From positions 1 through 64,000 of the forward strand of contig JABMNT010000227.1 of assembly GCA_013203595.1 (NCBI GenBank): a stretch of 64,000 bases of DNA, given 5' to 3'. Of this stretch, positions 5,974-39,371 are shown piece after piece. Numbering within the stretch: the first letter of the stretch is position 1; each line of letters opens with the position of its first letter. Under the pieces are notes generated by a model. It searched no databases, was not told where the DNA came from, and was given only the letters and a program-made list of their open reading frames with translations. The position numbers and the translations under genes were made by a program. The DNA is from Rhodospirillales bacterium. Its GTDB lineage: Bacteria; Pseudomonadota; Alphaproteobacteria; Rhodospirillales; Casp-alpha2.

Positions 5974-6051
5974 GGGAGCCTCATTTTGGTATGCTTTTAA
6001 AAGTGGGCGTAGCCTAATCGTCGACCCCGGTTGAGGCAAGCGCAGCGCTGG

Positions 6052-6735: not shown

Positions 6736-6752
6736 GGTTTCTCCCTCGGTTG

Positions 6753-16440: not shown

Positions 16441-17310
16441 GTGGCTGAATTGAAATATGAATCCCCGCAGACGACGGAAGCCGCTGTCGCACTGCTGGCG
16501 GCTGGTGGCCCGACGGCCCGGGTCTTCGCCGGTGGAACTGACCTGATGGTTCAAATGCATGAAGAAATGATCGAGCCGACATTGCTGGTTGATATCAAAC
16601 GGATCAGCGAGACCCGCCAGATTACCTTCGAGGACGACTATGTGCGTATCGGTGCCGCCGTTACCGGCGCTGAGCTTGGCGAGCATGCGGAACTCAAGGC
16701 GATGTGGCCGGGGGTCGTTGAAGCGGTCGAGCTCATCGGTTCCTATCAGGTTCAGGGGCGGGCGACAATTGGCGGCAATCTTTGCAATGCGTCGCCGGCG
16801 GCGGACAGCGTTCCCGCGCTTATCGCGGCTGCGGCCCGGGTTGTGATCGCCGGGCCTGGCGGAGTCCGTGACATCCCGGTTGAAGATATGCCGGTGGGGC
16901 CGGGCCGGACGTCGCTGGCAGCGGGCGAATTTGTGACCTCCCTACTGTTGCCGAAGCGCGCTGAACGGGCCGGTGATGCCTATCTGCGGTTTATTCCCCG
17001 CACCGAGATGGATATCGCTGTCGTCGGTGTTGGCGTTTCGGTTACGCTTAATCCTGACGGTACCTGTGCAACGGCAAGAATGGCGCTGGGCGCAGTTGCG
17101 CCGACCGCCAGGCTGGTCAAGGCGGCGTCAGATATCCTGGTCGGCAACAAGCTGGATCATGCGGTGCTGGAGGCTTTGGCGGAGGCGGCAAGTGACGCCT
17201 GCTCGCCGATTGATGACAAACGAGGAACTATTGTGTTCCGGACAAAAGTGGCCGGGGTGCTGGCCTGCAGGGCTGCGGCTATTGCCTGGCAACGCGCGGA
17301 GAAAAACTAA
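16441..17310 (+). CDS. molybdenum hydroxylase, FAD-binding medium subunit
   Basis: The 289-residue protein is the FAD subunit of a xanthine-dehydrogenase-family enzyme. The FAD motifs are AGGTDLMVQM (residues about 36-45) and TIGGNLCNASPAADSVPALI (about 110-129). The C-terminal CO-dehydrogenase flavoprotein domain follows. The start is GTG 16441 with AAGGAG upstream. It overlaps the next gene by TAATG. It passes electrons from the iron-sulfur subunit to NAD or another acceptor. Confidence 0.93.
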   Translation: MAELKYESPQTTEAAVALLAAGGPTARVFAGGTDLMVQMHEEMIEPTLLVDIKRISETRQITFEDDYVRIGAAVTGAELGEHAELKAMWPGVVEAVELIGSYQVQGRATIGGNLCNASPAADSVPALIAAAARVVIAGPGGVRDIPVEDMPVGPGRTSLAAGEFVTSLLLPKRAERAGDAYLRFIPRTEMDIAVVGVGVSVTLNPDGTCATARMALGAVAPTARLVKAASDILVGNKLDHAVLEALAEAASDACSPIDDKRGTIVFRTKVAGVLACRAAAIAWQRAEKN

Positions 17311-17789
17311 TGGCTAAAAATTTTGTAACGACCACGATCAATGGCGACGAGGTTGAGTTTGCCAGTTATCCGGGACAGTCCCTGCTCGACGTTCTGCGCA
17401 GTGAACTGCACATGACCGGGACAAAAAACGGATGCGGCAGCGGCGATTGTGGCGCCTGCACGGTGGTGCTCAACGGGCGGCCGGTCAATGCCTGCCTGGT
17501 GCTCGGGGTTGAGCTTGATGGCGCGGAAATTGAAACCATCGAGGGCATGGCGACGGGCACCAAGCTGCATCCCCTGCAGCAGAAGTTTCTCGATCATGCG
17601 GCTTTGCAGTGCGGGATTTGCACGCCGGGTATTCTGACCATGGCAAAAGCGTTCCTTGAAAAAAATCCGGATCCGACGGAAAGCGAAGTCCGTTATGGAC
17701 TGGCCGGAAATCTGTGCCGTTGCACAGGTTATGACAAGATTGTACGTGCCGTGCTGGATGCGGCCGCAGACATGAGGGCAGACGGATAA
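17310..17789 (+). CDS. molybdenum hydroxylase, [2Fe-2S] small subunit
   Basis: The 159-residue protein has the plant-ferredoxin-type cluster motif GCGSGDCGACTVVL and the second [2Fe-2S] domain with CGICTPG and CRCTGYDKI, so both clusters are intact. The length is normal for CoxS-like subunits. It overlaps both neighbours by single-digit bases (TAATG on each side), so the three subunits are translated as a unit. Confidence 0.95.
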   Translation: MAKNFVTTTINGDEVEFASYPGQSLLDVLRSELHMTGTKNGCGSGDCGACTVVLNGRPVNACLVLGVELDGAEIETIEGMATGTKLHPLQQKFLDHAALQCGICTPGILTMAKAFLEKNPDPTESEVRYGLAGNLCRCTGYDKIVRAVLDAAADMRADG

Positions 17790-20074
17790 TGAGCAATGAC
17801 CAATCAACCACAAACTACCGCTGGGTCGGCAAGCGCACTCCACGACCGGACGGCGTCGACAAGGTAACCGGGCGTGCGCGCTACGGTGACGACATGTCGG
17901 TGCCGGGAATGCTGCATTGTAAAATCCTGCGCAGTCCCCATGCCCATGCCAGAATTGTTTCGATCGATCTGAGCAAGGCGAAAGCCCTGAAAGGCGTTAA
18001 AGCTGTATTGACCTGTGCGGAAATTCCCGACCATCCGTTGTCGGAGCCGCCATACGCGCCGATCATAAACGATATGCACGATATTTCACGCAACGTCATG
18101 GCTCGCGAAAAAGTGCTGTATGACGGGCATGCGGTGGCGGCCGTTGCCGCAACCAGTGAGCGGATTGCCCGTGCGGCGCTGAAATTGATTGACGTTGAAT
18201 ATGAGGTCTTACCACATGTGCTCGACCCGCTTGAGGCGGCACAACCCGGTGCGCCGATACTGAACGAGGATCAATTCACCTTCGGGGACGAAACCGAGCC
18301 CAAGGTCCCGTCGAACCTGTTTCGCTCGATTACCGGCAAACGCGGGGATCTGGAAGCAGGATTTGCTGAAGCAGATCTCATCATCGAACGTGAGTTCATC
18401 TCGGAGCCTGTGCATCAGGGCTATATCGAGCCATTGGCCTGTATCGCCACCACGTCAGAGGATGGCTGCGTCGAGTTATGGACAACGACCCAGGGCCATT
18501 TTGTCATTCGCGCGCTTTGCGCCAAACTGCTGAACATGGAATTGGCCAAAATCCGGGTGACGGCCTCGGAAATCGGTGGCGGATTCGGCGGTAAAAACAC
18601 CATTTACGGTGAGCCTGTGGCCATTCGACTGTCACAGATGACGGGCCGCCCGGTCCGCATGGTGATGACCCGAACCGAAGTTTTCCGGGCCAGCGGGCCA
18701 ACGGTCGGCAGCCGTTCGAAGATCAAGATGGGAGCGAAAAAAGACGGGACAATCACTGCCGCCGAGGTTGATACCTGGTATCAGGCTGGCGCCTTCAAGG
18801 GGGCACCTGTCGGTCGGGCCGTGGAAACCTATTTTTCCTCCTATAAAATCGCCAACGTCAGAGCCACTTGTTACGATGTTTGTGTGAACCGACCGAAAGT
18901 CGCCGCCTACCGGGCCCCCGGTGCACCCATGGCTGCCTTTGCGGCGGAAGGTGCGATCAACGAACTTGCGGATCGCCTGGGTATCGACCCCATTGATTTT
19001 CGCCTGAAGAATGCGGTTGGTGAAGGTGATGAAAGCCTGATGGGCAGTAAATACGGTCAGATCGGTCTGGTTGAGGTGCTCGAGAAAGTAAAAAGTCATC
19101 CCCATTACGCGGCTCCGCTTGGGCCCAACCAGGGCCGCGGATTTGCCCTCGGCTACTGGATGCATGGCGGTGGCCTGAGCAGCGTATCCGCCCACCTGCT
19201 GGACGATGGCACTGTGACTGTTGCCACCGGCAACCCTGATATCGGCGGCTCACGCTCGTCCATGCGGGTCATGGCTGCCGAAGAACTGGGTATTGATATT
19301 GAATTGATCAAGCCGATCGTCGCCGATACGGGATCGATGGGCTACAGCCATCTGACGGCGGGAAGCCGAACCACCTTTGCCACCGGCTGGGCTGTCGTCA
19401 ATGCGGTGCGTGAAATCATCGACAAGCTGCGCGCCCTTGCCGCCAAGAAATGGGGTATTTCCGTAGACGATGTGATCTGGGAATCGGGCCAGGCGGTGCC
19501 CAAGAAGGCGGGTCAGGACCGGATCAAACCCCTGAGCCTTAAGGAACTGGCCGGAATGGCGACAAAGATGGGCGGAGCGATTGCCGGGCATTCGGAAATC
19601 AATGCCGGCGGTGTCGGCGCCGCGTTCAGTGCGCAACTGGTTGATGTGGAAGTGGATCCGGAAACCGGGTTTGTTACCCCCACACGCTACACCGTTGTGC
19701 AGGATGTGGGGCGCGCGATTTCGCCTGATTATGTGGAAGGCCAAATGCAGGGTGGCGCGGTGCAGGGAATCGGCTGGGCCCTGAATGAAGCCTATATTTA
19801 TGACGCCGAGGGGCGGTTGCAGAATACCGGTTTTCTGGATTACCGGATGCCGGTCGCCTCGGATGTTCCGATGATCGATACGGTTTTGGTGGAAGTGCCA
19901 AACCCCAATCATCCTTATGGGGTGAGAGGTGTCGGTGAACCCTGTCTGGTACCTGCACCGGCGGCTGTTGCCAACGCGGTTGAGAATGCCATTGGCAGAA
20001 CCATGAGCTGGCTGCCGTTGTCACCACCCAAAATATTGCAGGCGATTGAGGAATTGAAGCTGGCAGCCGAATAA
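17789..20074 (+). CDS. molybdenum hydroxylase, molybdopterin-binding large subunit
   Basis: The 761-residue subunit has the cofactor motif GGGFGGKN, the active-site loop KVAAYRAPGAPMAAF and the catalytic Glu in GVRGVGEPCLVPAP. The loop reads AYRAPGAP rather than the AYXCSFR loop of form I CO dehydrogenase or AYRGAGR of form II. It is therefore not a CO dehydrogenase but a hydroxylase or aldehyde-oxidase-type enzyme that adds water-derived oxygen to a C-H bond. The substrate is unknown; nearby SDR, PcaC-like, nitroreductase, hydrolase and transporter genes suggest an aromatic or N-heterocyclic compound. No moco-maturation gene is adjacent. Confidence 0.92.
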   Translation: MSNDQSTTNYRWVGKRTPRPDGVDKVTGRARYGDDMSVPGMLHCKILRSPHAHARIVSIDLSKAKALKGVKAVLTCAEIPDHPLSEPPYAPIINDMHDISRNVMAREKVLYDGHAVAAVAATSERIARAALKLIDVEYEVLPHVLDPLEAAQPGAPILNEDQFTFGDETEPKVPSNLFRSITGKRGDLEAGFAEADLIIEREFISEPVHQGYIEPLACIATTSEDGCVELWTTTQGHFVIRALCAKLLNMELAKIRVTASEIGGGFGGKNTIYGEPVAIRLSQMTGRPVRMVMTRTEVFRASGPTVGSRSKIKMGAKKDGTITAAEVDTWYQAGAFKGAPVGRAVETYFSSYKIANVRATCYDVCVNRPKVAAYRAPGAPMAAFAAEGAINELADRLGIDPIDFRLKNAVGEGDESLMGSKYGQIGLVEVLEKVKSHPHYAAPLGPNQGRGFALGYWMHGGGLSSVSAHLLDDGTVTVATGNPDIGGSRSSMRVMAAEELGIDIELIKPIVADTGSMGYSHLTAGSRTTFATGWAVVNAVREIIDKLRALAAKKWGISVDDVIWESGQAVPKKAGQDRIKPLSLKELAGMATKMGGAIAGHSEINAGGVGAAFSAQLVDVEVDPETGFVTPTRYTVVQDVGRAISPDYVEGQMQGGAVQGIGWALNEAYIYDAEGRLQNTGFLDYRMPVASDVPMIDTVLVEVPNPNHPYGVRGVGEPCLVPAPAAVANAVENAIGRTMSWLPLSPPKILQAIEELKLAAE

Positions 20075-20193: not shown

Positions 20194-21132
20194 TTAAAAA
20201 ACCGGGAAGAAAAACGCCTTGTCGATCATTAGTGCGGCAAAAATGGCAAACAGGTAGAAGATTGAGAAGAAAAACAGGGGGCGGGCTCGCTCAATCCCCT
20301 GTTCTTTCCAGAGTAGCCAGCCGCGACGCCAGAAGTCGACGCCAAGGGCAGCTGCAATCACTCCGTAAATCAGGCCGGAAGACTGCAGGAGTACGGGCAC
20401 CAGGGTGACCGGCACCAACAGGCTGGTATAGATCAGCATTTGCCGTTTGGTTTCCTGTTCCCCGACAACGACCGGCATCATCGGCACCCCAGCGGCGTCA
20501 TAATCGCCCCGCCGGAAGAGGGCCAACGCCCAGGAATGGGGGGGAGTCCAGAAAAATATAATGGCAAACAGGGCGATCGATGCCAGGCCGATTTCGCCGG
20601 TAACCGCCGTCCAGCCGATCATCGGCGGAAACGCCCCGGCAGCGCCGCCGATAACGATATTCTGGGGTGTTCGGCGTTTTAACCACATGGTGTAAATGAA
20701 TACGTAATAGAGAATGGTTCCAGCCAGCAGGGCGGCTGCAGGGATATTCACCAGCCAGGCCATAATGGCGACCGCAAACAAGGACAGAAACACACCAAAT
20801 ACAAGCGCTTCTATGGGGTTCATGCGGCCCGCCGGTATCGGCCGGTTCATGGTCCGGGTCATAATGTGGTCGATATCCTGATCATACCACATGTTGATGG
20901 CACCGGATGCACCTGCGCCAATGGCGATACAGGCGACCGCGATAAATGCAGTTTTCGGATCGATTGAGCCCGGCGCTAATATCAGTCCAACGAACCCGGT
21001 AAACACGACAAGTGACATGACCCGCGGTTTCAGGATGAGGGCGTAGTCCTGCAGTCGAAAACGCGGCTGGCGTTGTTCGTCGGCGGTCAGGGTTGATTGT
21101 TCTTTTGATGGGTCGTTAACGCGTTCGTGCAC
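20194..21132 (-). CDS. ctaB: protohaem IX farnesyltransferase (haem O synthase)
   Basis: This is a UbiA-type prenyltransferase that adds a farnesyl group to haem B, giving haem O for the aa3 oxidase. The first aspartate-rich site [19 protein letters not shown] and the second [10 protein letters not shown] are present, with about nine membrane segments. I start it at GTG 21132 ([10 protein letters not shown]), with GGAG 7 bases upstream, giving 312 residues, the family size; the frame extends to 21246. It is the last gene of a leftward operon, whereas in many alphaproteobacteria ctaB lies inside the ctaCDGE operon. Confidence 0.94.
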
Positions 21133-21205
21133 GGGACACTCCAGCCTTGGTTCGGGTTGTTGAGCGCCCTTATAGGCAAGGCGCACAAAAGAATCCAGCT
21201 TCCTG

Positions 21206-22651
21206 TTAGGATGTTGTCTTGATGGCGAAGGCAATGCGTCCGGCAATCCAGATGAACATAATTCCGCCGATCACGGCGACCAGGGCGCCGACACCCATCA
21301 TATAAAGACCGATTTCTGCGCCAAGGGCTTCCATGCCCTGGGCATCACCCGCGGTTTTTCGGGGCGCGCCATATCCGCCAGCCAGAAAAAGCCCCAGAGA
21401 ATGCAGGGTTTGACCCAGCGCGTAACTCCAAAGCAGGATGCGTACGGAGCGAATCGAGCGGATCGGGGCGTTCAGGACCGGAAACAAAAAACAGAAAAAC
21501 AAACCGATAAAGGCGATATTTACGCCACCGATGACGCCGTGATAGTGAGCGGGTGTTCGGGTATCGGCACCGTCGACAAACAATCCCAGTACCCCGCCGA
21601 TGCCAAACACCGCAACCGACAGAAAAAGGCTTAATAAAGCCGGGTCGCGCCAATCGAACGCGCCCGATTGTTGCCTGTGAAGGTATAAATTGACCGCAGC
21701 GGCACCGACAAAGGCAAGCGTTGGCGGGGCCATGCCGTATTGCGCCCAGGTATAGGCCTGACGGCCGTCAAAGCTGGTTGGGTCAAACAGCAGGCTCAGG
21801 GACACCAGGGCCACGGCGGCGATGATAAACAGGCCGACAATGGCAAGGAAAATGCGCGGATCGATAAGCGGGCGCGAAATTGCAGTGCCGCCGACAATGT
21901 ACCAGGCGATCACCATCAGCAGGGTATTGAGAAACTGAAGAACATGGCCACCGGCCCAGAACACATCCTCGTTGAACCCGGCATCAAGTGCAGAGCCCCA
22001 GCGCAGTTCCAGGGATATGCCAAAACACAGCAGAGCGGCCAGATAGAGGATGCCAGCCACCGCGATCCCTTTGGTTACCGGATCAAAGGGCCCCTGGTGG
22101 GCTGGCGTATTTATCAGCAGGCGGATGCACTGGAGAGCAAGGGAAGATGCGAACAGGCACAGGCCCGTGTAGTAAAGCGGGTCAATGATGACCGGAACGT
22201 AGTTGTTGAGCGATGGTTCGCCACGATCCATCAATCCCGGAATAAACAGCAATACAAAAGCCACGTAGGCCAGCCAGAGCGACAGGGTTCCGAGCAAACG
22301 CCCGCGCGGGTTGCTGTTGGAAATCCGATATGTTGCGATTGTCAGGAGTCCGCCCAGCAGGCTCAGAAACCAGACCACAAAGGAAAAAACAACGTGGATA
22401 ACCAGGCCTTTTTGAAAAAACTGCAGCGGCCATGGGAAAATATCCTGGACGTTGGGGACCCGTGAAAAGGCCAGTAAAAAAGCAAAAATGCCGGCCAGAC
22501 CCAGTGAGGAGAGGGCAAGGATACACCAGCTTTTCAGTTCTCTTCTGGCCGGGGAGGGCTGCATGGCGGTCTGAAAACCGCCGACAATGCTCCAGCGTTG
22601 CCGTTGTGCCGGCTCAATTCCAGCTAATGGTTGGGGCTCAGACGGGGACAT
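21206..22651 (-). CDS. haem-copper oxidase subunit I-like membrane protein
   Basis: The 481-residue protein has about 12 membrane segments and a haem-copper oxidase subunit I pattern: a helix-2 His ([15 protein letters not shown]), a helix-6 His ([11 protein letters not shown]), and the helix-10 HxH ([13 protein letters not shown]) that carries haem ligands. The helix-7 His pair that completes the CuB site is not seen; that helix reads [19 protein letters not shown]. The helix-6 Tyr cross-link motif is also absent. It may therefore bind haem but lack a normal oxygen-reducing centre, or be a divergent NO-reductase-like or assembly protein. It overlaps DUF420 by 14 bases and precedes ctaB. Confidence 0.75.
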
Positions 22652-23075
22652 GCGGATACAGATGTACGGCCATTACGTAGACCACCACCCCGGATACACC
22701 GACAAACACCCAGATCGGCCAGGTCCAGCGGGCAAGTCTTTTGTGTTTCTCGAAGTTTCCCCGTAAAGCGCGATAGAGGGTGAGGGGAACCAGGGGCAGG
22801 ATGGCGATGGCGCCAGCGACGTGAACGGCCAGCAAGGTGAAATAAAAGGGACGAATGAGCCCTTCGCCACCAAACCGGGCAAACCCGGAATTGGCTTTGT
22901 ATATGACGTAACCGACAAGAAACAGGCCGGAAATCGCAACGGCAGTGAGCATGCAGCGTTTGTGCTTTTGATGGTCCCCGGCGCGGATATAGCGGTATCC
23001 CAACAGCAAAAAAACCACTGACAAGGCATTCAGCGAGGCATTTAGATGGGTGATGTCCTGGATGTCAAAGGTCAT
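22638..23075 (-). CDS. DUF420 membrane protein (CtaM-like oxidase assembly factor)
   Basis: The 145-residue protein has four membrane segments and the DUF420 pattern (HLNASLNALSVVFLLLGY, HQKHKRCMLTA, FYFTLLAVHVAGAIAILPLV, KHKRLARWTWPIW). The conserved histidines in the loop and helix segments are present. CtaM, the Gram-positive member, is needed to mature haem-A oxidases, so an oxidase assembly role is likely. Its end overlaps the subunit I-like gene by 14 bases. Confidence 0.88.
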   Translation of the reverse strand: MTFDIQDITHLNASLNALSVVFLLLGYRYIRAGDHQKHKRCMLTAVAISGLFLVGYVIYKANSGFARFGGEGLIRPFYFTLLAVHVAGAIAILPLVPLTLYRALRGNFEKHKRLARWTWPIWVFVGVSGVVVYVMAVHLYPHVPV

Positions 23076-23112
23076 GGCGCTGCACCGGTCAACAGGCGAT
23101 CGATCAAAGGCG

Positions 23113-23196
23113 TCAGGACATTTTGTACATGATTGCCAGATACATAAAGATGGTTGCTGTCGCGAGAATGCCGCCGAGCAGGATATTTTTGTTCAT
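23113..23196 (-). CDS. 27-residue single-span membrane peptide
   Basis: ATG 23196 to the stop at 23113 encodes MNKNILLGGILATATIFMYL then AIMYKMS, one membrane helix with charged ends. AGGT lies upstream. It is the first gene of the leftward operon, 37 bases before DUF420. Small one-helix peptides are common partners of haem-copper oxidases, which makes this plausible, but nothing proves it is translated. Confidence 0.55.
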   Translation of the reverse strand: MNKNILLGGILATATIFMYLAIMYKMS

Positions 23197-23524
23197 GGGG
23201 ACTGACCTCTTGTCACATGTATCACGGTAAAAGACGGATGCATCTGCTAGATAGTCCGAGCCAGCGGAATATGCAACCGGGTAGCGCGGCTTCTGTGATC
23301 CATCCCGGGGCGTCAATTGTGCTGTCCAGGGGATTGATCCGGTTCACGGGGTGGCCAATCACTTACTTAATAATAATCAATTGCATTCCAAACAGCCAAT
23401 TGATTGAAATCTTGACTTGCCACGGTCTAAAAGGAACATTAGAAAGAGCGTAATTAGGTGAGTTCTCGGGCCACCTGTTTGAAATTTGTGTGTTTAATTT
23501 ATGGCTAATATTCGGATGGAAATA
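23197..23524. promoter_or_regulatory. divergent control region between the DUF420 and ctaC operons
   Basis: The 328 bases separate two diverging oxidase operons and are AT-rich near 23360-23460. TTGACT at 23412-23417 with AACATT at 23435-23440 (17-base spacing) is a possible but weak rightward promoter. No gene is seen. Confidence 0.4.
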
Positions 23525-24379
23525 ATGCTTAAACGACTATTCGCTCTGATCCCTGCGGGATTCACATATCTGCTGGCAGGGCAGGCATTGGCAGATGTAG
23601 AAATGCGATCATCGCAGTGGCAAATGTGGCTGCAGAAACCAATGTCGGAGTCTGCGGTCCTGGTTCACGATCTTAATCTGGGTCTTATGATTCTGGAGAC
23701 GGTGATTGTGCTTTTTGTCCTGGGACTGATGGTTTACATCCTTATTCGGTTTAACGAAAAAAATAACCCGGTTCCTTCCAAAAACACCCATAACACGATG
23801 CTTGAAGTGGTCTGGACGGCGCTGCCGATTTTAATATTGGTTGTTGTCGCCGTGCCCTCGCTGAAGGCGCTTTATTTCACGGATTCCAATCCCGACGTTG
23901 AAATGAACATCAAGGTGAATGGCAACCAGTGGTACTGGTCCTATTCCTATCCGGACAATGGCGACATTGCCTTTGACAGTATTATTGTTCCTGATGGCGA
24001 ACTGAAGCCAGGCCAGCCCCGGATGCTGAGCGTCGATAATCCGCTTGTCCTTCCGGCGAACACCAAGATTCGCTTTTTGATCGCGTCGAATGACGTGATT
24101 CATAACTTTGCTATGCCGTCGTTGGCGATCAAGGTTGATGCGACTCCGGGCCGGGTCAATGAGGTGTGGACGGAAATCAGTGAAGTCGGTAATTATTATG
24201 CCATGTGTTCCGAGCTTTGTGGTGTCAATCACGGCTTTATGCCCATTCACATAAAGGCTGTTTCGAAAGAAGCCTTCGCGAAATGGGTTGAGGAAGCGAA
24301 AGAAAAATTCGCAGACAATAGTTCATCAGACTATCCGAAAACTGTCCGCCTTGCCGAGGCAGTCAATAACGCCCGTTAA
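23525..24379 (+). CDS. ctaC: cytochrome c oxidase subunit II
   Basis: A signal peptide (MLKRLFALIPAGFTYLLAGQ..ALA) is followed by two membrane helices and a periplasmic cupredoxin domain. The CuA ligands are complete: His in NDVIHNFAMPSL and the C-x3-C-x3-H-x2-M set in CSELCGVNHGFM. The haem-edge tryptophan segment GNQWYWSYSYPD is present. I prefer ATG 23525, with a weak GGA site, over 23501, which adds 8 residues with no ribosome site; the length is then 284. CuA accepts electrons from cytochrome c. Confidence 0.96.
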   Translation: MLKRLFALIPAGFTYLLAGQALADVEMRSSQWQMWLQKPMSESAVLVHDLNLGLMILETVIVLFVLGLMVYILIRFNEKNNPVPSKNTHNTMLEVVWTALPILILVVVAVPSLKALYFTDSNPDVEMNIKVNGNQWYWSYSYPDNGDIAFDSIIVPDGELKPGQPRMLSVDNPLVLPANTKIRFLIASNDVIHNFAMPSLAIKVDATPGRVNEVWTEISEVGNYYAMCSELCGVNHGFMPIHIKAVSKEAFAKWVEEAKEKFADNSSSDYPKTVRLAEAVNNAR

Positions 24380-24419
24380 TGACGGGTGTCCGATAGATTA
24401 TTAAGTAAAGGGTCATATC

Positions 24420-26042
24420 ATGTCCAACGAAGCGGCAACCCACGATCACCATGCCGACCACAAACCGCCGTTTTTTCAAAGATGGTTCTGTTCGACCAAC
24501 CATAAGGATATCGGCACGCTGTATCTTGCCATTTCCATGATTGCCGCTCTCGTTGGCGGATTGATGTCATGGTATATTCGTTTGGAATTGGCCGAGCCGG
24601 GCATTCAGTTCCTGGATGTCGAGAACAATGGCTTTCAGTTCTATAATGTTCTGGTTACGGCGCACGGGTTCATCATGGTGTTCTTTGTCGTCATGCCAGC
24701 TCTGATCGGCGGCTTTGGCAACTGGTTCGTGCCGTTGATGATTGGTGCGCCGGATATGGCGTTCCCGCGGATGAATAACATCAGTTTCTGGTTACTGGTC
24801 GCTGGGTTCATTTTACTTTTGTTGTCGGCGGTTATCGGAGACGGACCGGGAACCGGCTGGACGGTTTATCCTCCGCTTTCAAACAGTGATTTCCATCCGG
24901 GACCATCCGTTGATTTCGGTATCCTGTCTCTCCACGTTGCCGGGGCGTCATCGATTTTGGGCGCGATCAACCTGATTGTGACGATTTTCAATATGCGGGC
25001 ACCGGGCATGACCATCCATCGCATGCCGTTGTTCGTCTGGTCAATTCTGATTACGGCCTTCCTGCTGCTGCTGGCGTTGCCGGTGCTGGCGGGTGCCCTG
25101 ACCATGCTGCTGACCGACCGCAACTTTGGCACCCACTTCTTTGATGCGGGTGCCGGTGGCGATCCGGTCCTGTGGCAGCACCTGTTCTGGTTCTTTGGTC
25201 ATCCGGAAGTTTACATCATTATTCTGCCTGCTTTTGGTATTATTTCGCAGGTCATATCAACGTTCTCCAAGAAGCCGATCTTCGGATATTTGGGAATGGC
25301 CTATGCCATGTCAGCCATCGGAGTTGTCGGTTTTGTTGTCTGGGCCCACCATATGTTCACGGTCGGTTTTGATGTCGACACCCGGGCTTACTTCACGGTC
25401 GCGACCATGGTTATTGCGGTGCCTACCGGCATCAAGATTTTCAGTTGGTTAGCCACCATGTGGGGGGGATCCATCAAGATGGAAGTGCCCATGCTCTATG
25501 CACTGGCCTTTATCTTTCTGTTTGTGGTCGGCGGAGTCACCGGAATCACATTGGCCAACGCCAGTGCGGATCTGGTCTTTCATGACACCTATTTTGTGGT
25601 CGCCCACTTCCACTATGTGATGGCCATTGCGGCTATTTTGGGGATGTTTTGCGGCTTCTATTACTGGATCGGCAAAATGTGCGGTAACCAGTATCCACGG
25701 GGACTTGCCAAACTGCAGTTCTGGGTGTTCTTCATCGGCGTCAATGTCCTGTTCTTCCCGCAGCATTTCTCCGGGCTTGCCGGTATGCCACGGCGGATTC
25801 CGGATTATCCGGATGCCTATTCAGGTTGGAATTACGTCAGTTCGGTGGGGGCATTGATTACCGCTGTCGGAACATTGCTGTTCTTCGTTGTTCTGTGGAT
25901 GACGCTGCGTTCGAAAGAGACCGTAGCGGCCAATCAGTGGGGCGAAGGGGCGACCACCCTGGAATGGACGGTTCCCAGTCCGGCACCGTTCCACACCCAC
26001 GAAGAACTTCCGGATATGACGGGAAAAGCGCCGGCTGAATAA
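24420..26042 (+). CDS. ctaD: cytochrome c oxidase subunit I
   Basis: The 540-residue catalytic subunit of the aa3-type oxidase has all metal ligands: low-spin haem His in [11 protein letters not shown], CuB His and the cross-linked Tyr in [15 protein letters not shown], the CuB pair in WAHHMFTVG, and VVAHFHYVM for both haems. D-channel and K-channel residues are in place ([22 protein letters not shown]). It reduces oxygen to water and pumps protons. It follows ctaC by 40 bases. Confidence 0.98.
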
Positions 26043-26071
26043 GGCCGGGCGGGTTCAGGGGATACAGACGC

Positions 26072-26668
26072 ATGTCGCGACGAGACCAAAAGAACAGGAA
26101 GTTCGCCTTGATGCTGACCACTTTGGTGGCTGGCATGGTGGGTGTCTCGTTCGCTTCTGTGCCGCTCTATCAGTTGTTCTGTAAAGTCACCGGATATGGC
26201 GGAACGTTAAATACGGAAAATGTTGTGGCCCCTGCAGACGTTTCGGAACGAACGATAAATGTTCGTTTTGATTCGAATATCAGCCCGGACCTGTCCTGGC
26301 GGTTTGTCCCTTTGCAGCGGCAGGTCACGGTCAAACTGGGGGAGCAGACCCTGGCGTTCTTTGAAGCGGAAAATACGGGTGTAACAGCACAAACCGGGCA
26401 GGCGACTTTTAACGTCACACCGTTTAAGGCAGCTCCGTATTTTTCCAAAATCGAATGTTTCTGTTTCACGGAGCAGACTCTGGCTGGTGGACAGACAGTG
26501 CCGATGCCGGTGCAGTTTTTTGTTGATCCGGAAATTTTTGAAGATCCCGCTACCAAAGACATAGGGACGATTACCCTGTCCTATACGTTTTACCCGGCGG
26601 AGAATGATGAAGATGATCGTTCGAAAGTTAAAGTGTCGGCGCGGGTACAGGCGTCGCATAAAGGTTAA
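26072..26668 (+). CDS. ctaG: cytochrome c oxidase assembly protein (Cox11 type)
   Basis: The 198-residue protein has one N-terminal membrane anchor (FALMLTTLVAGMVGVSFASV) and a periplasmic copper-binding domain with the CFCF motif in KIECFCFTEQTL. Cox11/CtaG delivers copper to the CuB site of subunit I. It stands between ctaD and ctaE, the standard alphaproteobacterial order. Confidence 0.95.
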   Translation: MSRRDQKNRKFALMLTTLVAGMVGVSFASVPLYQLFCKVTGYGGTLNTENVVAPADVSERTINVRFDSNISPDLSWRFVPLQRQVTVKLGEQTLAFFEAENTGVTAQTGQATFNVTPFKAAPYFSKIECFCFTEQTLAGGQTVPMPVQFFVDPEIFEDPATKDIGTITLSYTFYPAENDEDDRSKVKVSARVQASHKG

Positions 26669-26700
26669 TTTGGATTTAGAAGACCGATTGGAGACTATAA

Positions 26701-27513
26701 ATGTCATCAGCTAGCGAGCAATCCCACCCTTTCCACATGGTGAAACCAAGCAAATGGCCCTTCGTTGGGGCAGTTGGTGCATTGGTTATGGCCTGTGGCG
26801 GTATTTACTACATGAGCGAAGGTTCGCTGGTCGGCTTTTTTGCGGGCCTGGCAATTGTTCTGTACACCATGTTCGGCTGGTGGAAAGATGTGATTGCCGA
26901 AGGTAATAATGGCGTTGACCATACGGAAACAGTACGCCATGGCCTGCGCATCGGGATGGTTCTGTTTATTGTCTCCGAAGTGATGTTCTTCTTTGCCTTC
27001 TTCTGGGCCTATTTCGGGGCAAGTATTCCGATGCTGAGCCGGGCAACAACGGGGATCTGGCCGCCGGAAGGCATTGTGCCACTTGAAACCTGGGACCTGC
27101 CGTTCCTGAACACATTGATCCTGCTGACCTCAGGCGCCACCGTGACCTATGCGCACCACGCCATTCAGAAAGGTGACCACAAGAGGTGCGCCACCGGTTT
27201 GTTGCTGACGGTGATCCTCGGTGTTATCTTCACCACGACACAGGCCTACGAATATGCCCATGCGACCTTCACCTTTGACCAGGACATCTACACCTCGACC
27301 TTTTATCTGGCTACCGGGTTCCACGGGTTCCATGTCATTGTCGGTACGATTTTCCTGGCGGTCTGTTATTTCAGGACCTTGAAAGGTCACTTCACCCCTG
27401 AGCAGCATATCGGTTTTGAAGCGGCTGCCTGGTATTGGCACTTCGTTGATGTGGTCTGGTTGTTCCTGTTTGTTTCCGTGTATTGGTGGGGAAGTTTCGG
27501 TTACGAGGGATAA
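26701..27513 (+). CDS. ctaE: cytochrome c oxidase subunit III
   Basis: The 270-residue protein has seven membrane helices. Hallmarks are HPFHMVKPSKWPFVGAVGAL, SEVMFFFAFFWAYFGAS, GFHGFHVIVGTIFL and the C-terminal WYWHFVDVVWLFLFVSVYWW. It stabilises subunit I. It ends the cox operon, with a strong terminator 57 bases later. In relatives the next genes are usually DUF983 and SURF1; here DUF983 is 23.6 kb away, beyond the prophage, and no SURF1 gene is seen. Confidence 0.97.
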   Translation: MSSASEQSHPFHMVKPSKWPFVGAVGALVMACGGIYYMSEGSLVGFFAGLAIVLYTMFGWWKDVIAEGNNGVDHTETVRHGLRIGMVLFIVSEVMFFFAFFWAYFGASIPMLSRATTGIWPPEGIVPLETWDLPFLNTLILLTSGATVTYAHHAIQKGDHKRCATGLLLTVILGVIFTTTQAYEYAHATFTFDQDIYTSTFYLATGFHGFHVIVGTIFLAVCYFRTLKGHFTPEQHIGFEAAAWYWHFVDVVWLFLFVSVYWWGSFGYEG

Positions 27514-29084: not shown

Positions 29085-29768
29085 CTACCCGCCCAGAAGC
29101 TCGCCGGCCGGTACCACCACGTCCACGGATTTTACCTGATCAACGGGAACTTCAATATGCTGGTCGTAATCAGGATTGTAGGAGGAAAAGACAAACAGGG
29201 TCGGTGACTTCTTGATGTATACTTTTAGCATGGCCCGCCGGATGCCGCTGTCGCCGCTGCCATCATGCAGCTGGACAATAACGTCATTTCCACGCCTGGG
29301 CTTGAGTCTGGTGTCGACAAGAACAATTTCTCCCGGAAAAAACCGGGGCACCATGCTTTCGCCCGATGCCCGTACCGCGTAGACGTCGTCGCGGCCGATC
29401 CAGACGGGCGGGCGTTTGATCAGGAAGGTATCCGTGAACTCCATGTAATCGCTGTCCCCGCATTCAACCGTGCCGAACACCGGCAAATCGGTTTTCATAT
29501 CAGATGCCATCGGAATGGTTGCAGGGGTTTGTGTCGGAAATATGTTAACCGGCGGATCGGTATGACGCATCTCGCTGTCGGTAAAGATCAGTTCAGCGGG
29601 CGTGCAGCCGAGTACGGGGGCCAGCTTGATGGCCCATTTTTCCGACAGGGTGACAGTTCCGTTTTCCAGTTTCGACAGATAATTGCGCTGAGGAATGCGG
29701 GCCCGCTCGGCGAGCTCTGCCTGTGTTAAGCCCGCTTTATTGCGGAATTCTTTTAATCGGTTACCCAT
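29085..29768 (-). CDS. prophage repressor, CI/LexA-like (HTH plus S24 peptidase)
   Basis: The 227-residue protein has an XRE helix-turn-helix at about residues 4-58 (LKEFRNKAGLTQAELAERAR) and a C-terminal S24 self-cleavage domain. The Ser nucleophile is in ASGESMVPRFFPGE and the general-base Lys is in RRAMLKVYIKK. A Cys-Gly in TVECGD is the likely cleavage site. It should keep the prophage silent until RecA-driven self-cleavage. Its promoter has an operator in the spacer, and two more copies of that operator occur nearby. Confidence 0.93.
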   Translation of the reverse strand: MGNRLKEFRNKAGLTQAELAERARIPQRNYLSKLENGTVTLSEKWAIKLAPVLGCTPAELIFTDSEMRHTDPPVNIFPTQTPATIPMASDMKTDLPVFGTVECGDSDYMEFTDTFLIKRPPVWIGRDDVYAVRASGESMVPRFFPGEIVLVDTRLKPRRGNDVIVQLHDGSGDSGIRRAMLKVYIKKSPTLFVFSSYNPDYDQHIEVPVDQVKSVDVVVPAGELLGG

Positions 29769-29774
29769 GAATTT

Positions 29775-29803
29775 AATGTACCGGATAATTGTACTTGGTT
29801 CAA
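29775..29803 (-). promoter_or_regulatory. repressor gene promoter with operator in the spacer
   Basis: On the minus strand TTGAAC (29798-29803) and TACATT (29775-29780) are 17 bases apart. Operator GTACCGGATAATTGTAC (29778-29794) lies between them. This implies autoregulation by the S24 repressor. Confidence 0.75.
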
Positions 29804-29825
29804 GCCCCTGCTGTCTTCACATAAA

Positions 29826-29858
29826 GTACTTGAAAAAGGTACAAATGTAAGATAATCT
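29826..29858 (+). promoter_or_regulatory. rightward early promoter with third operator
   Basis: Operator GTACTTGAAAAAGGTAC (29826-29842) covers a candidate -35 TTGAAA (29830-29835), and a GATAAT/TAATCT -10 lies at 29851-29858. Repressor bound here would block rightward transcription into 29906 and beyond. Confidence 0.6.
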
Positions 29859-29905
29859 GAGCAGACCAGTAACCAGCAGATTTCAGACAGGGAGATAACA
29901 GAATT

Positions 29906-30250
29906 TTGGAACAGGAATTCAAAAGCCCCGGATCTGCGTTCAGGCGGGGCGGTGCCCAGGCCTTTGTCGAAGAAATGATGACTGTCTTCGGTCAGGCAGA
30001 CTGGCCGATGGACGGACGCAGGCCGGGCGACTGTCCGTGCTGGACAGGTTGCGGGGATAAGCTGCTGCTTCATTTCAAGCGCTGGAATGGCCATTGCGAA
30101 ACCGCAGATCCGGCCAGTGGTTGCCACAATCTGGCGCATGTCGCGGCCACTGCCCTGTATTTATGGATGCTCGAGCAGCAGCGGGCGGGCAGGGATGACC
30201 GGCCGGGCAGCCGGGCACAGCGACTTTTGGCTGACCTGGGTCAGCACTAG
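29906..30250 (+). CDS. small phage protein, DUF5664-like (dATP/dGTP pyrophosphohydrolase-related?)
   Basis: The 114-residue protein probably starts at TTG 29906 with GGGAG 11 bases upstream. It has CPCWTGCGDK, then LLLHFKRWNGHCETADPASG and CHNLAHVAATALYLWMLEQQ. The order H-x-x-x-W...D-P-x-S-G-x-x-x-L-A-H-x-x-x-x-x-x-x-L recalls phage DUF5664 proteins, some of which hydrolyse dATP/dGTP. The match is by eye and the N-terminus differs, so the function is tentative. It is the first rightward gene after the repressor. Confidence 0.55.
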   Translation: MEQEFKSPGSAFRRGGAQAFVEEMMTVFGQADWPMDGRRPGDCPCWTGCGDKLLLHFKRWNGHCETADPASGCHNLAHVAATALYLWMLEQQRAGRDDRPGSRAQRLLADLGQH

Positions 30251-30321
30251 CACATCGATAAATGGCCGCCGTGTTAACCCTGGCCGGCCAGGGTGTCATC
30301 AGCAGTGACAGGAGAAGGATT

Positions 30322-30837
30322 ATGGCAAAGCGCAGGCGCAGTAAACAGCGGGTCGAGGTGGCCTTGATCACGCCGGAACGGGCAAAAAAGCCCGATGTGG
30401 TGCAAAGTTCGGGTGGTAATCATCAGATCAAGAGTTATGGAGAAAGGCTGTTTGCCCGGTCTGTTATCGATCAGCGTCAGCTGGATGCCTGGAACCGGAT
30501 TGAATACCTGGCTGAACGCGCTGAATATCATGGCCGGCCCCGGGGTTCGCATCTGGACGGCATCGGCGGCGGCGTTGAGATCGGCGAGACAGAACACTAC
30601 ATCCGGGCCCGCCAAACCCTGTCGCGGTTGTTTGCCGCTCTTGGGCTGATGGGGACGTCAACCATCGAGTTTATGGTGATCATGGGCGAAGATGCGGAAA
30701 CCTATGCGGACCGGGTTCCCGGCTGGAACCGGCACAAGATTCTGGGTGGACTGTGCATCGCCCTCGACATCGCGGCCAATGTGCTGGGGATCGGCTACCG
30801 GGAGCAGGCGCAGGAGCCGCGGCGCGAATATCACTAG
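30322..30837 (+). CDS. phage protein of unknown function
   Basis: The 171-residue protein starts at ATG 30322 behind AGGAGAAGG. It has a very basic N-terminus (MAKRRRSKQR), a middle with SYGERLFARSVIDQRQLDAW, and an all-helical C-terminus (HYIRARQTLSRLFAALGLMG, KILGGLCIALDIAANVLGIG). The C-terminal layout recalls helical domains found in alphaproteobacterial phage regulatory proteins, but I cannot name the family. It is the last gene before the late-operon leader. Confidence 0.6.
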   Translation: MAKRRRSKQRVEVALITPERAKKPDVVQSSGGNHQIKSYGERLFARSVIDQRQLDAWNRIEYLAERAEYHGRPRGSHLDGIGGGVEIGETEHYIRARQTLSRLFAALGLMGTSTIEFMVIMGEDAETYADRVPGWNRHKILGGLCIALDIAANVLGIGYREQAQEPRREYH

Positions 30838-30918
30838 GCGTGCGCCCAGATCGCCGCATTGGGCGCCGGCCAAACCGGCGGAATTACCTAAAAAAATACC
30901 TTATGTTGTATTTTTTCG

Positions 30919-30946
30919 TTGACTTGGTAACTGAATGTGGTATCGT
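30919..30946 (+). promoter_or_regulatory. candidate late promoter
   Basis: TTGACT (30919-30924) and TATCGT (30941-30946) are 16 bases apart, with TG upstream of the -10. It precedes two terminator-like hairpins and the terminase genes. It does not contain the 17-base repressor operator. Confidence 0.55.
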
Positions 30947-30976
30947 TTCCTCACTGTCCCGGAGTGCGACAGCGGC

Positions 30977-31009
30977 GCGGCAGAAGGTGAGCTCCTTTTG
31001 CCGCTTTTT
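30977..31009 (+). terminator. terminator-like hairpin 1 in the terminase leader
   Basis: GCGGCAGAAGG (30977-30987) pairs with CCTTTTGCCGC (30994-31004), 10 of 11, with a 6-base loop, then five T. It lies downstream of the candidate late promoter and before the small terminase gene. Confidence 0.8.
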
Positions 31010-31034
31010 ATATTCTCCCTGGTATCAAACTCGG

Positions 31035-31071
31035 GGCCCGCAGGTTTTTCAGAACTGCGGGCCTGATTTTT
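31035..31071 (+). terminator. terminator-like hairpin 2 in the terminase leader
   Basis: GGCCCGCAG (31035-31043) pairs perfectly with CTGCGGGCC (31055-31063), and a five-T run ends at 31071. The small terminase start codon is 15 bases later, so the hairpin is within the leader, not at an operon end. Confidence 0.75.
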
Positions 31072-31085
31072 ATGGAGACGGTAAA

Positions 31086-31493
31086 ATGGCTGCTGACAGT
31101 CCGAAGCGTGACAGACCGACACGCCAAACCGGGAAAATCACCGATGCCATTTGCCGGCGGATTGCCGAAGGCGAGAGCCTGCAATCGCTCTGTAAGGATC
31201 CAAAAATGCCATCTCTGGCATCTGTGCAGGGATGGCTGGCCGATCCGGCCAACGAAAAATTCCGGGCCCACTATGCCCGCGCCCTGGAAATTCAGGCCGA
31301 CTTTTACGCCGACCAGATCATTGAGATTTCCGATACGGAAGAGAACCCCCAGAAGGCCCGGATCCGCATTGATGCGCGCAAGTGGAAAGCCGCCAAACTG
31401 CGGCCACGGGTCTATGGCGACAAAATTCAGCAGGATCACCGCGCTGACCTGGCTTTAACAATCACCACCGGAGTGCCCCGTGCCGACGATTGA
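31086..31493 (+). CDS. terminase small subunit-like protein
   Basis: The 135-residue protein starts at ATG 31086 with GGAG upstream. Its N-terminal helix-turn-helix-like region (TGKITDAICRRIAEGESLQS, LCKDPKMPSLASVQGWLADP) and the ensuing RIDARKWKAAKLRPRVYGDK match phage small terminase/DNA-recognition proteins. It would bind the packaging site and load the large terminase. It overlaps terL by 14 bases. The frame extends far upstream, but only this start fits the hairpin leader. Confidence 0.85.
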   Translation: MAADSPKRDRPTRQTGKITDAICRRIAEGESLQSLCKDPKMPSLASVQGWLADPANEKFRAHYARALEIQADFYADQIIEISDTEENPQKARIRIDARKWKAAKLRPRVYGDKIQQDHRADLALTITTGVPRADD

Positions 31494-32790
31494 TCTGGGT
31501 TACACCCCCCGCCCGGCCTTTCGGCCCTTTCACATGCGAACCGAGAACCGGGCCTGTCTGGTTTGTCACCGACGGGCCGGCAAGACGGTGGCCCTCATCG
31601 CTGACATGGTTGACAATGCACTGCGCTGCCCGAAACCGAACGGCCGGTTCCAGTTGCTGGCGCCCCTGCACAAACAGGTCAAGGATATTGCCTGGACCTA
31701 TCTGAAGGATATGACAGCGGCGATTCTGACCCGGACCGTCAACGAAAGCGAATTATGGGTTGCTCTGCCGAGCCGGGCCGGAACGCCTGTCCGGGTGCGC
31801 CTCTATGGCACGGACGTGAACCCCGATGCCCTGCGCGGGCTGTACAGCGACGGCATGGCGCTTGACGAATATGCCGACATGAACCCGGCGATCTGGGACT
31901 CGGTTGTGCTGCCGGCGCTGGCTGATCGCGGTGGCTATCTGGTGGTCAGCGGAACCCCCCGGGGATACAACGCCTTTTACAAACGCTACCAGGAAAGTCT
32001 GCGCGACGAGCGCTGGTATTCGCTGCTGCTGAAGGCCAGCCAGTCGGCTGTTTTGTCGGCTGATACCCTCGTCGATCTGGCCCGGGAAATGCCGCCTGGC
32101 AAATATGCCCAGGAGATGGAGTGCGATTTCACCCAGGCGGCAACGGCGCAGTTTGTCCCCACGGAACTGGTGGAAAAAGCGATGGTCCGCCTCGGTCAGG
32201 CGGATGCCCGGATGCCGCGGGTCCTCGGCGTTGATGTGGCGCGCTTTGGCGATGATGCCAGTGTCCTGGTGACCCGGCGCGGCCGGGTGGTCGAAGCCCT
32301 GCAGCGTTTTACCAAGCGCGATCTGGTGACACTGGCCAATGAGGTGATGAAGTGGGCCGACAGTGTGCGCCCACAGATGATCTATGTGGACGGGGCCGGG
32401 GTCGGCGGCGGCGTTGTCGATTACCTGTCCGGGGCCGGCTATCCGGTGCGCGATGTGCAGGTTGGCGGCCGTGCCGATGACCGGGTCCGCTATCTCAATA
32501 AACGGGCTGAACTGTGGGGCGAGATGCGCGAATGGCTGGCAACTGCTCAGTTTCAGTTGCCCGATGACGAGATGAACATCCTGTGTGCGGACCTGCTCGG
32601 CCCCGCCTATAGCTACACGATGTCCGGTCAAACCGCGCTGGAGCGCAAGCAGGACATGAAAAACCGCGGCCTCGCGTCGCCGGATGCCGGCGATGCTTTG
32701 GCGCTGACCTTCTTTGAGCGGCTGGCGCCGCGCGGCCTGCGCAGCGCCGACATGGCCGAGGACGCCGAAGCCATGGAGGATGTGTGGTGA
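31480..32790 (+). CDS. terL: terminase large subunit
   Basis: The 436-residue packaging motor starts at GTG 31480 behind GGAG. The ATPase has CLVCHRRAGKTVALIADMVD (Walker A-like RRAGKT) and Walker B GMALDEYADM; the motor coupling motif is VVSGTPRGYNAFYKRY. The RNase H-like nuclease begins with VLGVDVARFGDDAS, giving the first metal Asp, and continues to SPDAGDALALTFF with the last. It appears complete and active. Confidence 0.95.
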   Translation: MPTIDLGYTPRPAFRPFHMRTENRACLVCHRRAGKTVALIADMVDNALRCPKPNGRFQLLAPLHKQVKDIAWTYLKDMTAAILTRTVNESELWVALPSRAGTPVRVRLYGTDVNPDALRGLYSDGMALDEYADMNPAIWDSVVLPALADRGGYLVVSGTPRGYNAFYKRYQESLRDERWYSLLLKASQSAVLSADTLVDLAREMPPGKYAQEMECDFTQAATAQFVPTELVEKAMVRLGQADARMPRVLGVDVARFGDDASVLVTRRGRVVEALQRFTKRDLVTLANEVMKWADSVRPQMIYVDGAGVGGGVVDYLSGAGYPVRDVQVGGRADDRVRYLNKRAELWGEMREWLATAQFQLPDDEMNILCADLLGPAYSYTMSGQTALERKQDMKNRGLASPDAGDALALTFFERLAPRGLRSADMAEDAEAMEDVW

Positions 32791-33170
32791 TGCTGGGGCA
32801 GCTGCTGCTGTTGTTCACCCAGTCACCTTACTATGCCGGCCGGAGCACCGGGCGCCTGACCCAGACGGTCCTGCCGGCGCTGATCCGGGGCGATTTTGTT
32901 TATGTTGCGGACCGGGGCTGCCTGGTCGCCTGGGCGTCCTGGGCCTTTGTCAGTGATCAGGTGCTTGATGCCATCAAGGCCGGCAATCTGATCCAGGCAG
33001 AAGATTTCGACAGTGGCGCGCACTTATTGTGTCTCGACTTTATAGCGCCCTTCGGCCATGCCATCGCCTTACACCGCGAAATACGCAGGGTCCACGGGGC
33101 AAGGAAAGCCGTTTGGTTCCGAATGACCAAAGGCGACAGATTTTGCGAGGTAGTTTCAAATGGGAAGTGA
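32790..33170 (+). CDS. HlyC/RtxC-type toxin-activating lysine acyltransferase homologue
   Basis: The 126-residue protein aligns over its length with HlyC: LGQLLLLFTQSP to LGHVSWLWASSP, TVLPALIRGDFVYV to NVLPAIRANQYALL, VAWASWAFVSD to VAYCSWANLSL, EDFDSGAHLLCLDFIAPFGH to [20 protein letters not shown]. HlyC uses acyl-ACP to fatty-acylate lysines of haemolysin A; His23 and Asp92 are its key residues. Asp (in LDFIAPFG) is kept, but the His position reads Tyr (SPYY against SPLH). ATG 32790 overlaps the terL stop (TGATG) with GGAGGA upstream. It overlaps the next gene by 11 bases. No RTX toxin is in the window. Confidence 0.82.
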   Translation: MLGQLLLLFTQSPYYAGRSTGRLTQTVLPALIRGDFVYVADRGCLVAWASWAFVSDQVLDAIKAGNLIQAEDFDSGAHLLCLDFIAPFGHAIALHREIRRVHGARKAVWFRMTKGDRFCEVVSNGK

Positions 33171-33936
33171 TTCTGGATCAAACAGCGGCGACGATGCGCG
33201 CGGCACCCAGGCCCAGCGCGGCCGGAACAATGCGGGTTATGGGGATGCACTGAGCGGAGCGTTTGGCGGCGGCAACAGCCCAGGCTCTGGTGGCGGCGGC
33301 CAGACCGTGACGATCAGCCATCCGCCGCCCGGCTCGGAAACCCTGAGCATATCGGTCCGGCCCCAGACAGCACCCACCGCGGCCAAGGCCGCCGCCAAGG
33401 CGGCAGCGGGGCTGGGCGACTTTCTGGGCAGCCTGCTGGGCCTGAACATCCTTGACGATACCCTGGGCTCGATCCCCACCCTGAACGGCCAGACCCTGGC
33501 GGAGGCGCGCAGCGAAAGGGAAGCGTCGGCAAAAGCGGCGAATGAGCCATTCTCATTACCGGGAATGAAACCGTCCTCGACAGCGCCAACACAGATGAGC
33601 TGGGGGAAGCTGAATGTGCTAGGCAGGGGTAAAGGGGGAAATGAGCCAGACGCTGCTGGGTTGACTGAGAGTAATAAGTCGGTTGATGCACCTAAAACCA
33701 CCGATACTCGCGCCACGTTAAACTCTTCAAGCGACTTTTCTGGAGCTTTTGGAGACAGCAACCGAGACACCCCAGTCGTTCAGAAGCCGCCAGTCGCGTA
33801 TAGAGCCGCACCTATCAAAACGGTAGTGCCAACGAAACCGGTGAACTCCACGTCTTCCAACGGCACGCCGAATGATGATCTGTTTGAACTTTATCGCCGT
33901 ATGTTGGGTGGTTTCTTCAGGGGATCTCGGGTTTAG
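33160..33936 (+). CDS. Gly/Ser/Pro-rich disordered phage protein
   Basis: The 258-residue protein is mostly low-complexity. Its Gly/Ser/Asn-rich N-terminus (MGSDSGSNSGDDARG...) is followed by one hydrophobic helical stretch, AAAKAAAGLGDFLGSLLGLN. A Lys/Ser/Thr/Pro-rich region follows, and then a short ordered C-terminus (DDLFELYRRMLGGFFRG). It is coupled to the acyltransferase-like gene by an 11-base overlap, making it a candidate partner or substrate. It has no RTX nonapeptides. Base composition drops toward AT-rich in its last third. No family was recognised. Confidence 0.6.
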   Translation: MGSDSGSNSGDDARGTQAQRGRNNAGYGDALSGAFGGGNSPGSGGGGQTVTISHPPPGSETLSISVRPQTAPTAAKAAAKAAAGLGDFLGSLLGLNILDDTLGSIPTLNGQTLAEARSEREASAKAANEPFSLPGMKPSSTAPTQMSWGKLNVLGRGKGGNEPDAAGLTESNKSVDAPKTTDTRATLNSSSDFSGAFGDSNRDTPVVQKPPVAYRAAPIKTVVPTKPVNSTSSNGTPNDDLFELYRRMLGGFFRGSRV

Positions 33937-34526: not shown

Positions 34527-34679
34527 GGGTAAATTGTAACGGGATTCCGCTGCTGAGTGAAATGGAAACCTGACCGAAAACCGGGACTGGCTGGTTGGTC
34601 GGGACAGAGTGATTTTCGAGAGAAAAACGGGAATTTCAACCGGACAGCACTGAGGCTCAATTATCAGAATTCAATTCAT

Positions 34680-34700
34680 CCCGCTCCGGCGGGTTTTTTT
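34680..34700 (+). terminator. intrinsic terminator ahead of portal gene (first of two)
   Basis: CCCGC (34680-34684) pairs with GCGGG (34689-34693), followed by seven T (34694-34700). Confidence 0.75.
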
Positions 34701-34704
34701 GTGG

Positions 34705-34726
34705 GCGCCCTCCGGGGCGCTTTTTT
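34705..34726 (+). terminator. intrinsic terminator ahead of portal gene (second of two)
   Basis: GCGCCC (34705-34710) pairs with GGGCGC (34715-34720) around a TCCG loop, followed by six T (34721-34726). The portal start is 15 bases later. Confidence 0.8.
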
Positions 34727-34740
34727 ATTGGGAAATGCAC

Positions 34741-39348: not shown

Positions 39349-39371
39349 TAGAGACACCAAAGGAGCTCATC

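Follow-up and report, generated by a model that had tools for sequence, protein, structure and literature searches.

The window, the whole 64,000-nucleotide stretch of Rhodospirillales DNA analysed here, encodes a subunit I-like protein of the haem-copper oxidase (HCO) superfamily that has retained the histidines of the haem side and lost the helix-7 histidine pair of the CuB site. COXL, the name given here to these CuB-less homologues, appears to be a variant of the known HCO superfamily that has not been described before, and the function suggested for it below is testable. No earlier description of CuB-less HCO paralogues was found in the literature searched, most subscription journals lying outside its reach. 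There is about an even chance that COXL is a non-catalytic HCO subunit I paralogue that handles haem during the assembly of haem A/O-type HCOs and replaces SURF1 together with DUF420. Fixed haem ligands and an R-K pair, loss of CuB ligands and of the active-site Tyr/Gln, frequent linkage with ctaB and with genes for HCOs, and a distribution that nearly excludes SURF1 support this proposal and fit the haem-handling or assembly protein suggested in an earlier note on this DNA.

Gene organisation in the window

The interval picked out by the earlier note, 21206-23196, comprises COXL, a DUF420 gene and a 27-residue peptide; these genes and ctaB were all confirmed, on the minus strand, as was the divergent, normal aa3 operon ctaC-D-G-E (23501-27513, plus strand). 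The features are as follows.

20194..21246, minus strand: ctaB, heme O synthase (TIGR01473, 328 bits)
21206..22651, minus strand: COXL, 481 aa, CuB-less HCO-superfamily subunit I-like protein (PF00115)
22638..23075, minus strand: DUF420 gene, 145 aa (PF04238, 140 bits)
23113..23196, minus strand: micropeptide MNKNILLGGILATATIFMYLAIMYKMS, 27 aa, single-transmembrane
23501..24379, plus strand: ctaC, aa3 oxidase subunit II (ORF and CuA motif)
24420..26042, plus strand: ctaD, normal aa3 subunit I (TIGR02891, 712 bits, above the cut-off)
26072..26668, plus strand: ctaG, Cox11-type CuB insertion factor (ORF sequence and conserved cluster position)
26701..27513, plus strand: ctaE, aa3 subunit III (ORF sequence and conserved cluster position)

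The DUF420 gene overlaps the COXL start by 14 nt, with the 27-residue ORF upstream and ctaB downstream; the true start of ctaB probably lies near 21132, inside the listed ORF. A PF00115 match of 71.6 bits (E 7e-20; cut-off 34.8) in the Pfam scan indicates that COXL is no chance ORF. The same scan gave no PF02104 (SURF1) match for COXL, none of the NCBIfam models matched it, and no sequence relative was found among solved structures. The neighbouring ctaD has the complete histidine sextet, its HH and Tyr being seen in the alignment, and ctaC is the first gene of the ctaC-D-G-E order that is kept beside COXL in relatives.

The 27-residue peptide is a real conserved ORF. Related single-helix ORFs of 26-57 aa, with a consensus like ..ILA..LFMYASIF.KMS, precede DUF420 at about 25 further loci. 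No family matched the micropeptide itself (23113-23196, minus strand), and its longer homologues (47-57 aa) gave only a sub-threshold match to Coa3_cc (E 0.02-0.06), a resemblance on the basis of which the peptide may chaperone subunit I. It may also correspond to the CoxF-like ORF between ctaB and ctaG of SURF1-type clusters (L120:4613-4783).

Elsewhere in the window, molybdenum-hydroxylase-type genes (medium, small and large subunits; 16441-20074, plus strand) separate ctaB from an M32-thrC-M16 block at 3329-8246, which in relatives is directly 3' of ctaB; about 12 kb of inserted DNA thus divides the locus. The interval 29085-48470 is prophage-like, with a LexA/CI-type repressor and terminase large subunit-, portal-, capsid- and tail-like ORFs.

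Ligand residues, fold and phylogeny

COXL was aligned with A-type, cbb3, cNOR/qNOR-type and eNOR-like subunits (63 sequences in total), and four of the six HCO signature histidines were found in it: H86 (helix-2 ligand), H236 (helix-6 ligand), and H369 and H371 (the helix-10 HxH). L285-S286 occupy the position of the helix-7 HH, which is kept in all reference HCOs bar one divergent sequence (L110), and in helix 6 F240 replaces the Tyr of oxidases or the Gln of eNOR. In A-type oxidases an Arg pair binds the haem propionates; its counterpart in the alignment is R431-K432. Among 77 homologues, H86, H236, Q239, H369, Y370 and H371 are invariant and R431-K432 nearly so, and none has the helix-7 HH, so both alignments bear out the histidine pattern first reported for this gene. 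Displaced CuB histidines, which the earlier note had named as a finding that would overturn its reading, were ruled out, none being present among the 77 sequences. Since the four histidines are fixed and the pair is absent throughout, CuB-ligand loss is a family-wide property, with a strongly constrained haem side.

Catalytic HCOs are defined by a histidine sextet that provides two low-spin haem, one high-spin haem and three CuB/FeB ligands (PMC3475470). COXL, with four of the six, falls outside this definition and should therefore be classed neither with the oxidases nor with the NO reductases; the cross-linking Tyr (helix 6 or 7) of oxygen reductases is also missing, F240 taking its place. 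Because it has no CuB site, COXL should be unable to turn over O2 or NO.

Structure prediction, which had been proposed as a check, yielded a confident AlphaFold2 model (65 window-family sequences; pLDDT 91.7, pTM 0.92), and the Foldseek matches listed for it are all HCO enzymes, the best being the ba3 oxidase 3s8f (TM 0.76). The predicted fold is thus that of HCO subunit I, of the 12-helix type.

Maximum-likelihood analysis places all COXL rows in one monophyletic group (36/36; 100/100), sister to the CuA-type NO reductases (eNOR/sNOR; 97/84). The nine NOR rows form a clade of their own (100/99), outside which COXL is placed; it also lies outside the A-type clade, and its stem branch is long (1.33). 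Tree and residues together rule out COXL as a member of the A-type, cbb3, cNOR/qNOR or eNOR/sNOR groups, and with this the other finding that would have refuted the earlier note, clear membership in a described NO reductase family. The active-site Tyr position is occupied by Q in eNOR (PMC8756737). COXL departs from eNOR/sNOR, which are recognised by Q or N at this position and three FeB/CuB histidines, in having F240 and no HH. The NO reductases encoded beside COXL carry Gln there together with the helix-7 HH; the label sNOR was dropped for them, since Gln denotes eNOR (PMC8756737) and sNOR would have Asn.

By its place in the tree, the parent of COXL is a lineage of NO reductases of the eNOR/sNOR kind and not the aa3 oxidase. 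Judged by the loss of two metal ligands and of the active-site Tyr/Gln, COXL would not be a NO reductase either. The other suggestion of the earlier note, a divergent NO-reducing enzyme, is not supported, given the absence of two of the three FeB/CuB ligands and of the active-site residue, and a complete CuA-type NOR is encoded separately in genomes that have one.

Other divergent subunits were encountered. A 437-aa A-type COX1-like protein, a degenerate oxidase subunit of a kind unrelated to COXL (L111:6169-7482, plus strand; G026:C1 near 2155183), is encoded directly upstream of ctaB; by eye, the His of helix 2 is still in place, as is the second His of helix 10, and the high-spin haem and CuB ligands are gone. 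Its genome has CtaA and no SURF1, and the protein is possibly a convergent haem carrier. The divergent sequence L110 (337-2004, plus strand; G016:C26) is HCO-like and falls close to eNOR in the tree; its sextet is incomplete, with YH for HH in helix 7 and YFH for HFH in helix 10, and it comes from a genome with CtaA and neither SURF1 nor COXL. The genome of the window also encodes a divergent cbb3-like subunit I of 476 aa, on a long branch outside normal cbb3 (L106; C114:39000-43500), preceded by a 158-aa cytochrome c-like protein and followed by a 522-aa multi-haem CcoO/CcoP-like protein.

Distribution, gene neighbours and the SURF1 pattern

COXL relatives are encoded in 312 candidate stretches of GTDB genomes, and the best 80 of these loci come mostly from Rhodospirillales, with others from beta- and gammaproteobacteria and Nitrospirota; no match was found among 72,556 plasmids. 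Neighbours were counted within about 8 kb at 58 alphaproteobacterial and 22 other loci. The alphaproteobacterial loci, many of them on short contigs, contain DUF420 (52/58), ctaB (50/58) and an A-type HCO (42/58), typically as ctaE-G-D-C divergent from DUF420-COXL-ctaB, and most keep ctaG (Cox11); a complete cluster is present in the cultured strain Aestuariispira insulae CECT 8488 (L070). At the other loci, the neighbours are sco (15/22), ctaB (12/22), an eNOR-like NOR (11/22), DUF420 (only 4/22) and an A-type HCO (3/22). One alphaproteobacterial eNOR cluster (L124) combines ctaA, ctaB and COXL, and in G110 COXL is adjacent to, and divergent from, ctaA. Common to the aa3 and eNOR contexts is haem O/A synthesis beside an HCO.

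The eNOR-type clusters with COXL (L080:989-3086, L076:3349-8007) encode a cytochrome b fused to 4Fe-4S and FlpD domains, along with a 167-181 aa single-TM protein of no family with a conserved C..R..E.LA...PN.R....CPRER-like motif. The genome of the window has its own NO reductase cluster (L016; C98:4600-14700), which encodes a copper nitrite reductase-like protein, a cytochrome c, a CuA subunit, a Q-type CuA NO reductase, SCO, a cytochrome b/4Fe-4S/FlpD protein, a 239-aa protein and a haemerythrin; no COXL is found in it.

SURF1, a protein with two transmembrane segments and a large extracytoplasmic domain, promotes haem A insertion, a process for which further assembly proteins are still to be found (PMC9145763). 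Its distribution was surveyed in 289 alphaproteobacterial genomes and in 50 COXL-containing ones reached via COXL loci. Across the class, SURF1 occurs in 218 genomes, CtaA in 230 and DUF420 in only four, three of which have COXL; the 50 COXL-containing alphaproteobacterial genomes have CtaA in 49 cases, DUF420 in 47 and SURF1 in four. With CtaA present, SURF1 was detected in 209 of 225 genomes without COXL versus 4 of 49 with it, for which the raw Fisher p of 3.5e-33 is overstated since co-inheritance is ignored. Within the window's own order, COXL is found in 102 of 150 genomes, SURF1 in 19 and both in three, part of these COXL genes belonging to eNOR clusters. COXL as a stand-in for a missing haem A synthase was ruled out, CtaA being present in the window's own genome and in 49/50 COXL-containing genomes.

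Gene order shows the same pattern. Clusters without COXL (L126, L120) read ctaC-D-B-G-E-SURF1-M32-thrC-M16, and the COXL-containing L127 reads ctaE-G-D-C / DUF420-COXL-ctaB-M32-thrC-M16, with SURF1 missing from its place. Members of one family (G105, with SURF1 and without COXL; G211, the reverse) and of one order (G366 with SURF1, G000 with COXL) differ likewise, and both contrasts follow CtaD type. The CtaDs linked to COXL group together in a single clade of the CtaD tree (SH-aLRT 84), separate from those linked to SURF1, and a second small COXL-linked group goes with another A-type oxidase; as the module is inherited as a unit, the pattern therefore represents one or two SURF1 exchanges, not fifty. 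A within-genus swap in g269 (G453 versus G437) was withdrawn, the COXL of G437 lying in an eNOR cluster and not with aa3.

SURF1 is retained in four genomes that have both COXL and DUF420, one operon carrying SURF1 and COXL together (L121, from the genome of L042). It is also kept in G059 and G110, which have COXL and no DUF420; on the evidence of these two genomes, the protein that stands in for SURF1, wholly or in part, could be DUF420 and not COXL. The retention of SURF1 in some COXL-containing genomes and the loci in which COXL has no HCO neighbour (L012/L045) count against a haem-chaperone role.

Proposed role and comparison with known systems

In the proposed mechanism, haem made by CtaB/CtaA would pass to COXL and from there to apo-CtaD or apo-eNOR, the clients being the aa3 oxidase here and the CuA-type eNOR in other phyla. 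The binding sites for haem A (or O) on COXL would be the bis-His pair H86/H371 and the proximal H369, helped by the propionate-binding basic pair R431-K432, and DUF420, of the CtaM family, would serve the copper side. The fold, the ligand set, the CuB-ligand loss across the family, the gene linkage and the near-exclusion with SURF1 are observed here; from them we infer haem binding, the kind of haem and its transfer to CtaD. In the Rhodospirillales-type aa3 module, DUF420, COXL and the micropeptide would stand where other alphaproteobacteria have SURF1. A fuller scenario is offered tentatively and is rather less probable: a catalytic NO-reductase-type subunit was duplicated, lost CuB and became a dedicated haem A/O chaperone that, with DUF420 and the micropeptide, forms a SURF1-independent aa3 assembly line across much of the Rhodospirillales-type alphaproteobacteria and, in other phyla, helps to build eNOR.

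The tight operon with its 14-nt overlap, and the presence of DUF420 in 47/50 COXL-containing genomes, would also suit a copper-delivery or CuB-site assembly pair, in which COXL offers DUF420 or ctaG proteins a surface like that of an HCO, with one distal His/Gln (H236/Q239, both invariant), and helps to metallate CtaD, haem insertion needing no SURF1. CtaM (DUF420) is required for aa3 activity and not for haem a/a3 formation (PMC9145763), it has been proposed to act in copper export (PMC13344008), and sco is near COXL in 15/22 non-alphaproteobacterial loci. This explanation is nevertheless unlikely: with two CuB ligands absent, copper binding by COXL is doubtful, most of its fixed residues serve as haem ligands, ctaG is retained in most alphaproteobacterial loci, and DUF420 accompanies COXL in few loci elsewhere (4/22).

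About as unlikely is a membrane haemoprotein that binds NO or O2, whether to sense it, to act as a sink or to protect the oxidase or NOR. NnrS, a NO-related polytopic haem membrane protein without oxidase activity, would have a comparable role; the comparison is one of role only, and the Pfam scan of COXL gave no NnrS match, COX1 being the sole model up to E 1. A high-spin haem without CuB would leave the distal pocket open, and the eNOR context (11/22 non-alphaproteobacterial loci), like the sister position to CuA-type NO reductases, also fits an NO-related role. In alphaproteobacteria, however, COXL is linked to aa3, ctaB and DUF420 and not to NO genes, it has no signalling domain, and the NO reductase cluster of its own genome lacks it.

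The retained bis-His site, typical of electron-transfer haem, and the proximity of ctaA in G110 and L124 could point to an electron-transfer partner of CtaA (haem A synthase) or an accessory oxidase subunit instead of a haem carrier; yet 225 sampled class genomes have CtaA without COXL, so that CtaA needs no COXL in general, and alphaproteobacteria encode neither a docking subunit nor a soluble redox domain alongside COXL, which makes this improbable. That COXL is a divergent enzyme still able to reduce NO or O2, although compatible with the HCO fold, the four ligands and the sister position to eNOR/sNOR, is extremely improbable given the family-wide loss of two of three FeB/CuB ligands and of the active-site Tyr/Gln/Asn/Glu, the long stem branch and alphaproteobacterial loci that provide neither a CuA nor a cytochrome c subunit dedicated to it.

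Haem A insertion factors are diverse and incompletely known (PMC9145763). As a haem-handling assembly factor, COXL is a concrete candidate for the step that carries haem A from CtaA to subunit I, being widespread, with haem ligands kept, no copper site and SURF1 missing; if the proposal is true, an enzyme has become an assembly factor of its relatives. COXL also warns against taking every genomic PF00115 match for an oxidase or NO reductase.

Among known systems, SURF1/Shy1 resembles COXL in its position in the aa3 cluster and its inferred role, with a nearly exclusive distribution, but has no homology to COXL, which has a 12-helix-type HCO fold. The operon partner of COXL belongs to the same DUF420 family as CtaM of Staphylococcus and Bacillus; to our knowledge, CtaM in Bacillota works without any COXL-type protein, whereas alphaproteobacterial DUF420 is almost confined to COXL genomes. 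A-type subunit I (CtaD) shares the fold and four of six histidines with COXL, which differs in the missing CuB pair and cross-linking Tyr and is only distantly similar in sequence. The closest counterpart is eNOR/sNOR subunit I, the best-scoring and sister HCO family, which has in common with COXL the helix-6 GHxxQ, an R64-like Arg, the RK/RR pair and, in beta- and gammaproteobacteria and Nitrospirota, the gene clusters; unlike it, COXL has no helix-7 HH, has F for Q/N and, in alphaproteobacteria, is accompanied by no CuA subunit of its own.
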